DNA from: an uncultured Opitutia bacterium
GTDB taxonomy: Bacteria > Verrucomicrobiota > Verrucomicrobiia > Opitutales > UBA953
Direction: 5' to 3'
Length of the DNA: 64,000 nt
NCBI GenBank assembly: GCA_945957395.1
Contig: CAMFKE010000007.1
Span: forward strand, 124,001-188,000
In this document: positions 41,373-49,057 of the stretch, piece after piece
How positions within the stretch are numbered: position 1 is the stretch's first letter
Layout of the letters: each line of letters opens with the position of its first letter
Program-made: the position numbers and the translations under genes
The notes under the pieces: generated by a model
Database searches by the model: none
Told to the model about the DNA's origin: nothing
The model's input: only the letters and a program-made list of their open reading frames with translations

Positions 41373-44357
41373 TCAGAGGGCGGCGAGGATCTTGGCCTTG
41401 ATCGCGGGCACCGGCAGGTTGGCCAGTTCGGTGGGAGCGAGGCGATTGGGGATGATCGCGGGCAGCTTGGTGAGCTTTTCCGAGAGGATCGGGGCGCGGT
41501 TGGCGGCCACATCGTCCACGCGGTCGATGGGCGTGAAGCGCGGGGCGTTCACCAGCACGCGAGCGTCCTGACGGACGAGCTCGATGATGCCGGCGACCAC
41601 TTCGCCGAAACGGTCGAGCTCGGCCTTGGTGTAGGACTCGGCGGGCTCGATCATGAGGCCGAACACCTCGGGGAAGGCGACGGTCGGGGCGTGGTAGCCG
41701 AAGTCGAGGAACAGCTTGCCGATGCGGCCGATGGCGGCGGACTTGGGCACGCCGGCGGCTTCGATCTTTTTGAAGTCCTCGTCGGTGAGCGTGAGGATGA
41801 ACTCGTGCATGCGCGGCATGGAGTGCGCGGCGGCGGGCAGCGAGGGGTACACGCCGGGAGAGAGCTTCGTGAAGAGGTAGCGCGCGGAGACGACGGCCAC
41901 GGCGGACATGCGCTTCACGCCCTCCTTGCCGAGGCGCTGCAGGTAGGTGTACACGCGCACCTTGTGGGCGAAGTTGCCGTAGTGGCGGTGGAACTCGCCG
42001 CAGCTCTTGGGCGCCTTGAAGGTGACGAACTTGTCGCCTTCCTTGCGGACCTGGATGCCGGGGATGAAGTCCACGAGGAGCTTCGACACGCCGACCATGC
42101 CGTCGCCGGGGCCGCCTCCGCCGTGCGGGACGGACCAGGTCTTGTGAAGGTTGTTGTGCACGGCGTCGACGCCGAGCTTGTCCAGGTCGAGCCAGCCGGC
42201 GATGGCGTTCATGTTGGCGCCGTCCATGTACACGAGGCCGCCTTCGGCGTGAATGCGCTCGGCCATGTGCTTGAAGTTGATCTCGAAGATGCCCGAGGTG
42301 TTCGGGTTGGTGCACATCACGCCGCACACGCGGCCCTTGTACTTGGCCAGGTTTTCCTCGAGGTCGGCGAGGTCCACGGAACCGTCCGGCGCGGCCTTGA
42401 TCACGACGATGCCGTAGTGGACGCCGTCGATCTTGCGCACATCGAGACCGGCGGTGGCGGCGGTGGCGAAGTTGGTGCCGTGCGAGCTGTTGGGGATGAG
42501 GATGATGTTGCGGTTGAAGTCACCGCGGGCGCGGTGGTAGGCTTGGAACATCTTGATGCCGACCAGTTCGCCCTGGGCGCCGGCCACGGGCTGCGTGACC
42601 ACGCCGGCGAGGCCGGTGATGCCCTTGAACCATTCCTGATGCTGGTAGATGACCTCCAGGCAGCCCTGCACGTCCTCGGCGGGGGCCTGCGGGTGCGCGG
42701 CGGTGAAGCCTTCGAGACCGGCGGCCCAGTCGTTGATGTACGGGTTGTACTTCATCGTGCAGGAACCGAGCGGGAAGCATCCGGTATCCGGAGACACATT
42801 CTGCTCGGCGAGGCGCGTGTAGAAGTCCTTCAGCTCGGCGACGGAGAAGGAGGGCAGGTCGACGGCTTCGGAGCGCAGGAGGGCGGCGGGCACTTCGGCC
42901 ACCTTGCCGGCGCCGGAAGACTTGCCGTAGAGGCCCTCGAAGAAGGCGACGAGCTTGGCGCAATCGGCTTCGGACTGGAGGTCGGAGAAGGAGACCTTGA
43001 GCAGGCTGCAACCGCAGGGGGTGCGGCCGGTGATGTCCACGCCCACATGCAGGCCGGCGGCGCGACCCTTCTGGATCACGGCGGAGGCGGGCTCGGGGAG
43101 AATGAGGGAGAACTCGTTCCAGAAGGCCTGGTCGGCGTAGCAGACCTTCAGGCCGGGGATGCCGGCGAGCTTGGCGGCCACGGCGGAGGCGCTCTTGCGG
43201 CCGGCGGTGGCGGAGGCGCTCATGCCGGCCTCGCCGCGCTCGAGGATGGCGGCGCCGGCGATGGTGGCGATGTAGGCCTGGTTGGAGCAGATGTTGGAAG
43301 TGGCCTTGTCGCGGCGGATGTGTTGCTCGCGGGTGCTCAGCACCATCACGAGGCAGTCGCGGCCGGCGGTGTCCTTGGCGCGGCCGACGAATCGGCCGGG
43401 CGTGGCGCGCACATCGTTCTTGGTGGCGTCGTTGTAGCGCACGGCGAAGAAGCCCAGGCCGGGGCCGCCGAAGTTGGCGCCGATGGCGAGGTGCTGGGCT
43501 TCGCCGCAGAGGATGTCGGCGCCCTTCCTGCCGTACTTGGCGGGCTGCTTGAGGCCGCCGGTGGCGAGCAGCATGGGGTCGACGACGGCGACGGACTTGG
43601 CGCCGAGGTCGGCGGCCAGGTCGGTGAGCGCGTCCACATCCTCGAGCAGGCCGAGGTTGTTGACCTGGGGGAAGACGATGCCGCCGAGGCGGGCGCCGAG
43701 CTTGGCGGCTTCGGCGCGGAGGGTTTCCACGGAGAGACGGCCGGTCTTCTCGTCGGGCTTCACGAACACGAGGTTCGTGCGGGTGTCGACGGTGTGGGTC
43801 TTGAGGACCTCGAGATCGTTGGGGAAGAGGTTGGCGGCGACGATGACGGTGTCGGCCTTGTCATTGAGGCGCAGGGCGCAGCAGACGGCCTCGAAGAGCG
43901 CGGTGGAGCGGTCGTAGAGGGAGCAGTTGACGGCCTCGAAGCCGGTGAGGGCGGCCAGGGCGCACTGGTAGATCCAGAGGGTGGCGAGGGTGCCTTGGGA
44001 GCGCTCGGGCTGGTAGGGGGTGTAGGTCGTCGTGAGGTTGCGGATACCGCAGACAAAGGGGACGATGGACTGGGTCTTGTAGACCTGGAGGCCGTCGCCG
44101 AGGAAGGGCGTAAGGTTGTTGTTCTTCTTGGCGAGCGCGGCCATGCGGTCGGCCAGTTCCTGGTAGCCGAGTTCCGCGGGCAGGTTCAGCTCTCCGGAGA
44201 ACTTCACATCGTCGGCGATGTGGCTGTAGAGATCGGCGAACTTGGAGGCGCCCACGGCCTTGAGCATCTCGGCGATGTCCTGTTCGGACGCCGGGATGTA
44301 GTGGCGGGCGAGCTCGCGCGGGAACTTCGCGGGATCATACGGCAGGACTTGAGGCAT
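41373..44357 (-). CDS. gcvP: Glycine decarboxylase P-protein, single chain
   Basis: A 994-residue PLP enzyme with both halves that some bacteria split into GcvPA and GcvPB. The second half holds the PLP lysine K739 in HNNLHKTWSVPHGGGG. The first half carries ADILCGEAQHLAIGANFGGP. It decarboxylates glycine and passes the aminomethyl group to GcvH, feeding one-carbon metabolism. The ATG at 44357 (MPQVLPYDPAKFPREL) starts just before the domain. gcvT, gcvH and lpd are not adjacent. The terminator at 41314 ends it. The 302-base leader shows no recognisable glycine riboswitch. Confidence 0.93.
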   Translation of the reverse strand: MPQVLPYDPAKFPRELARHYIPASEQDIAEMLKAVGASKFADLYSHIADDVKFSGELNLPAELGYQELADRMAALAKKNNNLTPFLGDGLQVYKTQSIVPFVCGIRNLTTTYTPYQPERSQGTLATLWIYQCALAALTGFEAVNCSLYDRSTALFEAVCCALRLNDKADTVIVAANLFPNDLEVLKTHTVDTRTNLVFVKPDEKTGRLSVETLRAEAAKLGARLGGIVFPQVNNLGLLEDVDALTDLAADLGAKSVAVVDPMLLATGGLKQPAKYGRKGADILCGEAQHLAIGANFGGPGLGFFAVRYNDATKNDVRATPGRFVGRAKDTAGRDCLVMVLSTREQHIRRDKATSNICSNQAYIATIAGAAILERGEAGMSASATAGRKSASAVAAKLAGIPGLKVCYADQAFWNEFSLILPEPASAVIQKGRAAGLHVGVDITGRTPCGCSLLKVSFSDLQSEADCAKLVAFFEGLYGKSSGAGKVAEVPAALLRSEAVDLPSFSVAELKDFYTRLAEQNVSPDTGCFPLGSCTMKYNPYINDWAAGLEGFTAAHPQAPAEDVQGCLEVIYQHQEWFKGITGLAGVVTQPVAGAQGELVGIKMFQAYHRARGDFNRNIILIPNSSHGTNFATAATAGLDVRKIDGVHYGIVVIKAAPDGSVDLADLEENLAKYKGRVCGVMCTNPNTSGIFEINFKHMAERIHAEGGLVYMDGANMNAIAGWLDLDKLGVDAVHNNLHKTWSVPHGGGGPGDGMVGVSKLLVDFIPGIQVRKEGDKFVTFKAPKSCGEFHRHYGNFAHKVRVYTYLQRLGKEGVKRMSAVAVVSARYLFTKLSPGVYPSLPAAAHSMPRMHEFILTLTDEDFKKIEAAGVPKSAAIGRIGKLFLDFGYHAPTVAFPEVFGLMIEPAESYTKAELDRFGEVVAGIIELVRQDARVLVNAPRFTPIDRVDDVAANRAPILSEKLTKLPAIIPNRLAPTELANLPVPAIKAKILAAL

Positions 44358-44659
44358 GGTCGGCTGTGGCTGGTGTTTTGGAAAGGAGAAGCCCCCTGCG
44401 GAAGTCGGGGGAAGGCGGGCAATCAAACCGGCGGAACGCGACCGGCAAGGCGTTACCCGTCGAATTCGCGGCGCCCCCTCCGGCCTCGCAAAAAATGGGG
44501 TCAATTCCCCGCAGTCGCGCACGGTGAGAGTGTCGCGTCCTTCAGTTTTGAGTTTCCGCCCCGAGCAAAACCGCAATGCATGCCGGCCCGCCAAGGCGGG
44601 CGCGCCCCGGCGCGACTTTCCTGAAAACCGACTTTCAAACACCCACCACCCTCGTCCCC
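44358..44659. other. Divergent intergenic region gcvP/dapF (302 bp)
   Basis: It holds a palindrome GCCCGCC-AA-GGCGGGC (44586-44601), and GGGGTCAATTCCCC (44497-44510) preceded by six A, which on the gcvP strand would read as a weak hairpin plus T run. No glycine riboswitch core and no promoter pair could be recognised. Confidence 0.45.
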
Positions 44660-45514
44660 ATGCGCTTCCACAAGTACCACGCCCTCGGCAACGACTACCT
44701 GGTCCTCGACCCGGCCGACTGCGCCGGCAAGGTCCCCACCGTCGAGGAGATCGTCAAGATCTGCCACCGCCACTACGGCCTGGGCTCCGACGGCATCCTG
44801 TTCGGCCCCACCCTGCAGCCCGACGGCGCGTTCGGTCTGCGCATCTTCAACCCCGACGGCTCCGAGGCCGAGAAGTCCGGAAACGGCATCCGCATCTTCG
44901 CCCGCTACCTGTGGGACACCAAGAAGGCCGGCGACGCCCCCTTCAAGATCCACACGCCCGGCGGCCTCGTCACCTGCGTGGTGCGCGAAGGCGGCAAGCG
45001 CATCACCGTGGACATGGGCTCGGTCAGCTTCCGCGCCCCCAAGATTCCCGTGACCGGCCCCGACCGCGAGGTCATCGGCGAGAAGATCACCGTGCTCGAC
45101 CGCGAGTTCACCTTCCACGCCGCGACCGTGGGCAACCCGCACTGCGTGATCCCGGTGCCGGAAGCCACGCCCGAGCTGGCGCAGAAGTACGGCCCGCACA
45201 TCGAGCGCCACCCGCTCTTCCCGAACCGCACGAACGTGCAGTTCCTCAGCGCCATCGACCGCAACAACATCCGCATCGAGATCTGGGAGCGCGGCGCCGG
45301 CTACACCTACGCCTCCGGCTCCAGCTCCTCCGCCTCCGCCGCCATCGCGCACAAGATCGGCATGGTGGACCGCGATGTCACCGTGCACATGCCCGGGGGC
45401 GTCATCGAGATCGGCATCGGCGAAGGCTACGCCATCACCATGACCGGCCCCACCACCCCGGTGGGCGTCTACGCCATGAACCCCGAGGTCATCTCGCAGC
45501 AGGTGAAGCTCTGA
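44660..45514 (+). CDS. dapF: Diaminopimelate epimerase homologue lacking both catalytic cysteines
   Basis: A 284-residue protein with the DapF fold in two pseudo-symmetric halves (FHKYHALGNDYLV; FNPDGSEAEKSGNGIRIFA; VGNPHCVI; WERGAGYTYASG). In E. coli, C73 (CGNG) and C217 (ACGTG) carry out racemisation. Here the matching residues are S73 (KSGNGIR) and S219 (YASGSSSS). The fold and substrate motifs remain, so it may be a slow DAP epimerase, an epimerase for another amino acid or a non-enzyme. It is followed by a strong terminator. A true DapF elsewhere in the genome would settle the role. The start at 44660 fits the family N-terminus. Confidence 0.8.
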   Translation: MRFHKYHALGNDYLVLDPADCAGKVPTVEEIVKICHRHYGLGSDGILFGPTLQPDGAFGLRIFNPDGSEAEKSGNGIRIFARYLWDTKKAGDAPFKIHTPGGLVTCVVREGGKRITVDMGSVSFRAPKIPVTGPDREVIGEKITVLDREFTFHAATVGNPHCVIPVPEATPELAQKYGPHIERHPLFPNRTNVQFLSAIDRNNIRIEIWERGAGYTYASGSSSSASAAIAHKIGMVDRDVTVHMPGGVIEIGIGEGYAITMTGPTTPVGVYAMNPEVISQQVKL

Positions 45515-45577: not shown

Positions 45578-45653
45578 CAACGACCCCGGCGCGGGAGACC
45601 GCCCCCGACGGCGCGCTTGCAATTCCGTCGCCGCGGCGCGCAATGCGCGGGCG

Positions 45654-46184
45654 ATGAGCGAGCACCCCTGGTACTGCATACGCGCGCAGCCGAAGCGCGA
45701 GGCGCTCGCCGCCTCGCAACTGGCGACGCTGCCCGGCGTGCGCGTGTTCCACCCGCGCGTGAAGTTCATCCGACGCGGCGCGCAGGGCCTCAAGGCCGCC
45801 CAGGAGCCGCTGTTCCCGGGTTACCTGTTCGCCTCCTTCGACTTCCTCGAGTCCGGAAAACAGGTCGGCTACACGCGCGGCGTCGCCCGCATCGTGCGCC
45901 GCAACAACCTCGAACCGGCCGAGGTGCCTGCCGGCGTGATGGCCGGCCTCTTCGCGCTCGCTCCCGAAGGGCTGGTGCTCGCGGGCGACCCCGAGTTCAA
46001 GGTCGGCGACGCCGTGCGCGTCATCTCGGGCGTGTTCGCCGGCACCGAGACGACCGTGACGCGCCTTCTCCCCGGGGAACGGCGCGTGGCGGTGCTGCTG
46101 CGCCTGCTCGGCGGCGACCGCGAGATCATCCTGGAAAGCGGGCACCTCGACCTGCCCGACGCCGACCCGCGCAAGCGCCTCTGA
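45654..46184 (+). CDS. NusG paralogue (RfaH/LoaP-like antiterminator)
   Basis: A 176-residue protein with an NGN domain ([31 protein letters not shown]) and a KOW domain ([21 protein letters not shown]). It should bind the elongating RNA polymerase and change pausing or termination. It is shorter and more divergent than housekeeping NusG, and it lacks the usual secE/rplK neighbours, which suggests a specialised paralogue that controls selected long operons, such as surface polysaccharides. The ATG at 45654 ([10 protein letters not shown]) fits. The start of hprK lies 70 bases downstream. Confidence 0.82.
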
Positions 46185-47309: not shown

Positions 47310-48620
47310 TCACGCCTTCGCCACGGGAATCTCGTCCCAGTTCGTCGTGCTGCGCGGCGTGCGCCGCGTGGAGCGCCCCGCGGATTTCTCGCGCCCCATC
47401 TCGGCGGCCACGCGCAGCCCCGGCCCGCCCGGCACCCGGTTCACCGCGTCCAGCGCGCGCATGAGCGCCGCCGAACGCGCCGCGCGCTCCGTGTCGCCGA
47501 ACAGCGCGAGCTGACGGCCGGCGGACGGGGTGAGTCCGTAGAGCATGACGCCGGCGCGCCGGTAGGCGTGCCCGGGCCGGAACGCCTCGCGCACCGCCGT
47601 CGTGGCGGCCGAGACGAACGCGCGCGTGTCGTCGCCGGGCTCGTCGAACGCGACGCTCACCGACAGCCGGTGCTGCGGGAGCTCCTCGCGAAAACGGTTC
47701 GTGTCGGCGAACACGATGAGGCCGCCGGCGAGCATGCCCTCGGCCCGCGCCGTCTCCGCCGCGCGCGAGGCGAACCCGGCGACCGCCGAGGCCAGGGTGT
47801 CGGCGTCCTCAGCCGGCGTGCCGAAGGAGCGCGAGCACAGCACGCTTTGGCGAGGCGCCGGCGCCTCGTCCCCGCTGGCCAGGCAATCGATGCCGGCGAG
47901 CTCGTCGGCGGTGCGCACGAGCGTCACCCCGCCCAGCGCGCGCAGCCTCTCGCGCGACGCGTCGCGCACATCGGCGGCGGTACGCAGACCGTGGCCGGCC
48001 AGCACCGGGGCGCTGCGGCGCCCGATCCCCCACACGTCGCCGGCGGCGAACTGGCGCAGGAGCGACTCGCGCTCGCGCCCGGGCAGAGCCATCAGCACGC
48101 ACACGCCGGCGCGCGTGAAATCGGGATGTTTCTTGGCCGTGGCGTTGGCGAGCTTCGCAAGGGTCTTGGTGGGCGCCACGCCCACGCCGCAGGGCAGCCC
48201 GAGCAGCCGCAGCACCTGCGAGCGCATGGCGCGCGCCGCCGACTCGGCCTCGGCGAGAGGCAGGGAGGACCAATCCAGAAAACACTCGTCCACCGAGTAC
48301 ACCTCCGAGCGCGGCGCGAAACCCTCCAGCACGCGCATCAGGCGCGCCGACATGTCACCGTACAGCTCGAAATTCGCGGACAGGCCGATGACGCCGTTGC
48401 GCTCCACGATGTCGCGCACCTTGTGCCAGGGCGCGCCCATCGGTATGCCCACCGCCTTGGCCTCGTTCGAGCGCGACACCACGCAGCCGTCGTTGTTCGA
48501 CAACACGACGACGGGCCGCCCGCTCAGGGACGGACGGAACACGCGCTCGCAGGACACGAAGAAATTGTTCCCGTCGACCAGCGCGTACCCGGCGCCGGTC
48601 ACACCTTGTGAACCGCCCAT
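47310..48620 (-). CDS. umuC: Y-family DNA polymerase V subunit UmuC
   Basis: A 436-residue polymerase. Active-site motifs are [16 protein letters not shown] near the N-terminus and [10 protein letters not shown] with the metal-binding D/E. The helix-hairpin-helix [19 protein letters not shown] and the little-finger region follow. It copies damaged DNA as part of UmuD'2C. The ATG at 48620 overlaps the umuD stop by 22 bases; a GTG at 48602 that overlaps umuD by 4 bases is another possible start. The two genes form one SOS-type unit. The C-terminus ([19 protein letters not shown]) matches the beta-clamp-binding end of the family. Confidence 0.9.
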
Positions 48621-49057
48621 TTCACCACGCCCCATACGGATAGTTCGCCCTCCTCGCCCACCGGGATGTCGCGGTACGCCGGATTCGCGGCCCGCAGCAC
48701 GGGGGCGCCCCGCGCGTCGCGCGCCAGGCGCTTCACGGTGAACTCGCCGTCGAGCGCGGCGACCACCACATCGCCCATCGCCGGGCGCACGGAGCGGTCC
48801 ACCACGATGAGGTCGCCGTCGGCGATGCCGGCGTCGCGCATGGAGTTGCCGGATACGCGCATGTAGAAGGTGGCCTCCGGGTGCGTGGCGAGATGGCGCT
48901 CCAGGTTGAGCCGGCGATCCACGCGCCCCTCGGCGGGCGAGGTGAACCCGGCGGGCACGCGGGCCTCCAGCAGCGGGGCCTCCGGGGAGCCGGAAAACGC
49001 GGAGCACGGACCGACGCCGAGGGTGGCCCGGGTGTCGTGTGGGTCGGTGGGGAACAT
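48599..49057 (-). CDS. umuD: UmuD, self-cleaving SOS mutagenesis protein (S24 peptidase)
   Basis: A 152-residue protein. The self-cleavage pair A36-G37 lies in [13 protein letters not shown]. The catalytic serine is S72 in [10 protein letters not shown], and the lysine is K109 in EFTVKRL. RecA-filament-stimulated cleavage yields UmuD', which activates UmuC. No DNA-binding domain is present, so it is not LexA. The ATG at 49057 was chosen; an in-frame ATG at 49093 would add 12 residues, but a TTGACA at 49117-49112 suggests transcription starts inside that extension. Confidence 0.88.

Follow-up and report, generated by a model that had tools for sequence, protein, structure and literature searches.

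Serine at both catalytic cysteine positions in the diaminopimelate epimerase homologues of a verrucomicrobial clade

For cofactor-free racemases it is a standing question by what means a weak base takes off an alpha-proton with a pKa of about 29, and the answer usually given is the special chemistry of a cysteine thiolate pair; the pKa of serine lies far above that of cysteine. In these enzymes cysteine is favoured by desolvation and pKa (PMC8142540), and cysteine-to-serine exchanges have been damaging, with activity greatly reduced in HisR C67S and C209S (PMC11602996) and abolished in PddB C233S (PMC8225329), results which count against catalysis by a pair of serines. Serine does occur naturally in the proline racemase superfamily, where the 4-hydroxyproline 2-epimerase B9JQV3 carries a Ser/Cys pair and the trans-3-hydroxyproline dehydratase B9K4G4 a Ser/Thr pair, and where the catalytic serine is held by an asparagine at +3 (PMC4113996). 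The existence of this epimerase and this dehydratase shows that serine can act in the fold shared with diaminopimelate (DAP) epimerase, DapF. We know of no earlier racemase or epimerase of the DapF fold without any catalytic cysteine, and our search of the open-access literature on serine in DapF and on DapF of the Opitutus group found neither a description of a DapF with two serines (Ser/Ser) nor a text match for C73S/C217S. GC/MS has detected DAP itself in Opitutus terrae and in three strains of Lacunisphaera, in roughly one tenth of the amount in E. coli and with no stereochemistry given; TLC revealed no DL-DAP, and the accessible part of that account lists a DapF with no comment on its active site (PMC5303756). 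The low amount and the TLC result weigh against the reading favoured below.

The gene considered here lies in a stretch of 64,000 nucleotides (the window) from an uncultured Opitutia bacterium of the order Opitutales (GenBank contig CAMFKE010000007.1). It occupies 44660..45514 on the forward strand, the strand of all its codons cited below, and its translation of 284 residues is recognised by the DapF equivalog model TIGR00652 at 223.6 bits (cut-off 114.65) and by PF01678 at 173.4 bits (threshold 34.7). The start at 44660 matches that of relatives, whose N-terminus reads MRFxKYHALGNDY. PF01678 alone exceeds its Pfam threshold, and membership of the proline racemase superfamily is not indicated by sequence; structures of the proline racemase fold are about 12-17% identical to the protein in structural alignment. 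As an earlier note on this DNA had claimed, serine stands in for both catalytic cysteines: in phmmer alignments with DapFs of solved structure, Ser73 (codon TCC, 44876..44878) and Ser219 (codon TCC, 45314..45316) fall opposite the two cysteines, C73 and C217 of the H. influenzae enzyme, and neither the cysteine pair nor the cysteine-containing PROSITE signature of DapF is present.

The DapFs of H. influenzae, Anabaena (9mro) and Arabidopsis (3ejx) share with this protein the fold, the DAP-binding residues, the length and the pathway context (DapL, MurE, LysA). The Ser/Ser variant differs from them in having serine for both catalytic cysteines, serine for glycine three residues after the second, lysine for methionine or glutamine just before the first, and tyrosine for glutamate, valine or isoleucine four residues before the second. 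B9JQV3 and B9K4G4 likewise combine a DapF-like fold with a natural serine for a catalytic cysteine and a polar residue at +3, but they have serine at one site only, the other being cysteine or threonine, their substrates are hydroxyprolines, and they are only about 14-17% identical to the Ser/Ser DapF in structural alignment.

It is clear that the double replacement is a trait of a whole clade and not an oddity of one genome. A first alignment of 112 locus records, drawn from the window's family and a GTDB-wide scan (a few genomes are in two collections, and 110 records remain without two fragments of the source genome's own gene), had serine at both sites in 112 of 112, under titles that include Opitutus, Lacunisphaera, Didemnitutus, Rariglobus and Puniceicoccales, among others; the best 80 matches of the GTDB-wide contig scan all bore Verrucomicrobia-type titles. 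After sampling of the order, class and phylum the final alignment comprised 265 proteins, counted as sequences with some genomes in two collections, of which 196 are Ser/Ser, 67 Cys/Cys and two Ser/Cys. The 196 Ser/Ser proteins belong, by record titles, to Opitutales and to a number of further families in the phylum, at about 55-75% identity and with the reading frame open in nearly all. They form one clade in the FastTree phylogeny (local support 96) and the Cys/Cys proteins another (97), and the trait has a single origin. Among the sequences read, 120 encode Ser73 by TCN and 75 by AGY, and the tree requires at least four changes of codon class for Ser73 and at least seven for Ser219, with serine retained throughout; because a stepwise switch between TCN and AGY passes through codons for cysteine or threonine, serine appears to be actively kept. 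Sequencing error in both codons, a caveat raised in the earlier note, is ruled out by the occurrence of Ser/Ser throughout the 196 clade sequences, which together with the codon-class changes also excludes chance and a pseudogene. The two Ser/Cys hybrids (S73, C219; loci L238 and L240) come from order-level metagenome-assembled genomes of about 1 Mb (G483 and G548) and sit on a long branch of unsure placement; they may represent an intermediate or a separate change.

The substrate site is as well preserved as the earlier reading of its motifs had indicated. The DAP-binding residues listed for H. influenzae, namely N11, N64, N157, N190, E208, R209, G74, N75, G218 and S/T219 (PMC8225329), are present in 195-196 of the 196 Ser/Ser proteins, with serine or threonine at 219. 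In the numbering of the variant, N11, N64, N75, N159, H161, N192, E210, R211 and G220 are invariant across all 196, a set that includes every ligand of the distal carboxylate (N64, N159, N192, R211). Seven phylum-level genomes (G191, G235, G297, G388, G366, G261, G369) carry second, Cys/Cys paralogues of the DapF fold (L300-L306) in which E-F-G replaces E-R-G and F-[ED]-P-D-G is present; the distal-carboxylate arginine and Asn64 are lost, and these proteins are, to judge from such motifs, probably racemases for another amino acid. Set against the loss of R211 and N64 in the paralogues, the invariance of the distal-carboxylate ligands in the Ser/Ser clade disfavours the suggestion, made when the gene was first noticed, that its substrate may differ.

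An AlphaFold model of the protein (pLDDT 89.8) has the two-domain DapF fold, with Anabaena DapF as the closest structure (Z 36.7, rmsd 1.9 over 272 residues). The H. influenzae mutants C73S and C217S (PDB 2q9h, 2q9j; Z 31.9 and 31.2), which have one serine each at the same positions, are engineered single mutants meant to hinder catalysis and are without the compensating neighbours of the Ser/Ser clade. Helices begin in the model at 74 (74-86) and 220 (220-232), which would make Ser73 and Ser219 helix N-caps, like the cysteines of DapF. The residues beside them have changed along with them. Lys72 (44873..44875), the basic neighbour of Ser73, is found in 97% of the Ser/Ser proteins, where 99% of the sampled Cys/Cys proteins have methionine; Tyr215 (45302..45304) is found in 99% of the clade, where Cys/Cys proteins have glutamate, valine or isoleucine; Ser222 (45323..45325), three residues after Ser219, is serine in 99% of the clade and glycine in 67 of 67 Cys/Cys proteins; and Ile79 is a further clade-specific, nearly fixed change. 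Anabaena DapF keeps the sulfur of its second cysteine in place through the backbone NH of the glycine at +3, its loop preceding the first cysteine wraps around the substrate, and neither sulfur has a basic residue within 4 A (PMC12039745), so that a lysine at position 72 would be new.

The source genome, 96.1% complete in 14 contigs, encodes DapL, which makes LL-DAP (582.5 bits), a MurE whose DNPR motif is typical of meso-DAP ligases, and a relative of LysA that scores 257.8 bits, under the TIGR01048 cut-off of 297.9, and whose best PDB matches are without exception DAP decarboxylases, among them E. coli LysA at 2.4e-64. Together DapL, the MurE motif and the LysA relative indicate that LL-DAP is made and that meso-DAP is apparently used. 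A search of this genome for a further PF01678 protein found none, a hidden copy being not strictly excluded at 96% completeness, and the protein can stand as the only DapF, the case that the earlier note had considered. A bypass through the meso-DAP dehydrogenase Ddh was rejected, as a search of the same genome found no Ddh. The Ser/Ser protein is the sole known candidate for the step between LL-DAP and meso-DAP in the source genome, and with two serines in the only DapF the proposal that meso-DAP supply works by an unusual mechanism is probably correct.

Relatives without the Ser/Ser protein for the most part have Ddh or an ordinary Cys/Cys DapF in its place, which points to a shared role in meso-DAP supply; the functional case for the Ser/Ser protein rests mainly on this exchangeability. 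Cys/Cys DapF is the only form in 13 genomes of families f85 and f95 and in three of genus g29, and two genomes of the order sample (G416, G539) have Ddh and no DapF. Ddh, which likewise delivers meso-DAP, although by an unrelated, one-step reductive amination, substitutes for DapF in genus g3 of the window's family and in some of g33. Six of the eight g3 genomes have Ddh without DapF, and the same six are without DapL above the cut-off; in these genomes (G011-G015 and G017, with Ddh loci L113-L118) both DapF and DapL have been exchanged for Ddh. The seventh (G010) has DapL with a Cys/Cys DapF, and the eighth (G016, 90% complete) has DapL with no match for DapF or Ddh. Within the same family, genera g4 and g5 have the Ser/Ser DapF with no DapL above the cut-off and no Ddh, and another route to LL-DAP must therefore exist there. 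Several genomes count against the explanation favoured below: a canonical DapF accompanies the Ser/Ser protein in G421 and G503, and Ddh accompanies it in G522 and G549 of the order sample and in G490, whose protein, 56% identical to that of the source genome, is assigned to the Ser/Ser type by identity only, its active site being unread. Other genomes of the order without any match are mostly of about 1 Mb or incomplete. The exception is G514, an order-level genome that is 95% complete, with 2.3 Mb in a single contig; it has a match for neither DapF nor Ddh and also counts against the favoured explanation, and its congeners have DapF, Ddh or both.

Given these data the Ser/Ser protein is probably the enzyme by which this organism and the rest of its clade epimerize LL-DAP to meso-DAP, with a serine pair at the helix N-caps; its putative function as a DAP epimerase is well supported, albeit indirectly, by conservation and gene content. 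LL-DAP from DapL would be converted by the Ser/Ser DapF to meso-DAP for peptidoglycan, through MurE, and for lysine, through LysA. Exchange of cysteine for serine normally cripples such enzymes, and the clade therefore probably powers the same proton-shuffling reaction in another way. On the simplest reading the two serines would serve as acid and base, probably tuned by the nearly fixed second-shell residues Lys72, Ser222 and Tyr215; Ser219 might be positioned and activated via Ser222, and Ser73 perhaps via Lys72. That this essential epimerization without a cofactor proceeds throughout the order by such an alkoxide/alcohol pair, or by a newly recruited Lys/Tyr-assisted serine mechanism, in place of the cysteine thiolate/thiol pair, seems to us a reasonable expectation, if with a little less assurance than the role itself.

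It is also conceivable, although unlikely, that the protein is a true DAP epimerase in which the proton is moved by Lys72, Tyr215, H161, E210 or a bound water, and the serines act as N-caps that bind the carboxylate. Lys72 and Tyr215, nearly fixed among the Ser/Ser proteins, are missing from the sampled Cys/Cys proteins, and a basic residue at 72 has no counterpart near the sulfurs of Anabaena DapF (PMC12039745), as this idea would lead one to expect. In 3% of the Ser/Ser proteins, however, from families with tiny genomes, isoleucine takes the place of Lys72, which is thus not indispensable everywhere and is a weakened candidate for an essential base; H161 and E210 are invariant in Cys/Cys proteins too, and both serines are kept without a single exception.

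A reaction other than epimerization, be it elimination, one-sided exchange or binding only, with meso-DAP coming from another enzyme or a wall built with LL-DAP, is a more doubtful proposition than a change of proton-moving group. Serine and threonine replacements did turn enzymes of the proline racemase fold into dehydratases (PMC8142540, PMC4113996), TLC of Lacunisphaera showed no DL-DAP (PMC5303756), and two genomes hold an extra canonical DapF. A LysA relative beside a DNPR-type MurE nevertheless implies use of meso-DAP, and loss of the gene coincides with the presence of Ddh or a Cys/Cys DapF. Nor do we know of any hydroxylated DAP on which a dehydratase could act. The loss of both canonical catalytic residues might suggest an inactive, degenerate relic, yet conservation already contradicts this, with binding residues invariant in many families over about 55-75% identity, a frame open in nearly all and a sole PF01678 copy in the source genome, and we regard it as very improbable. 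Least probable is a glutamate racemase role of the kind suggested for chlamydial DapF: the Chlamydia enzyme is bifunctional and MurI is often missing from PVC bacteria (PMC5885031), but MurI is present in the source genome (208 bits), the ligands of the DAP distal carboxylate are intact, and the bifunctional model NF038284 gives 51.5 bits against a cut-off of 350, a far poorer fit than TIGR00652.

A natural Ser/Ser enzyme with an intact substrate site, Ser/Cys relatives and few co-fixed neighbours would make the question of proton removal testable by residue swaps. If the serine pair is indeed catalytic, thiol reagents, and probably DapF inhibitors of the aziridine type, should have no effect on the epimerase, which predicts bacteria whose meso-DAP synthesis escapes thiol-directed DapF inhibitors. 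Such an enzyme would also bear on the long dispute over DAP and peptidoglycan in Verrucomicrobia of subdivision 4.

Beside dapF in the source genome lie gcvP, a NusG/RfaH-like gene and hprK, and a reading of the neighbour clusters at 80 related loci recognised no DAP genes. Directly 3' of dapF, at 45651-46184 on the forward strand, is the NusG/RfaH/UpxY-like antiterminator, which scores under every specific cut-off, and an open reading frame at 47310-49007 on the reverse strand was recognised by eye as having the sequence of a Y-family DNA polymerase (UmuC-like). Divergent to dapF, at 41373-44372 on the reverse strand, GcvP is encoded as a single chain of about 1000 residues that scores above the separate cut-offs for GcvPA and GcvPB and below that for full-length gcvP.
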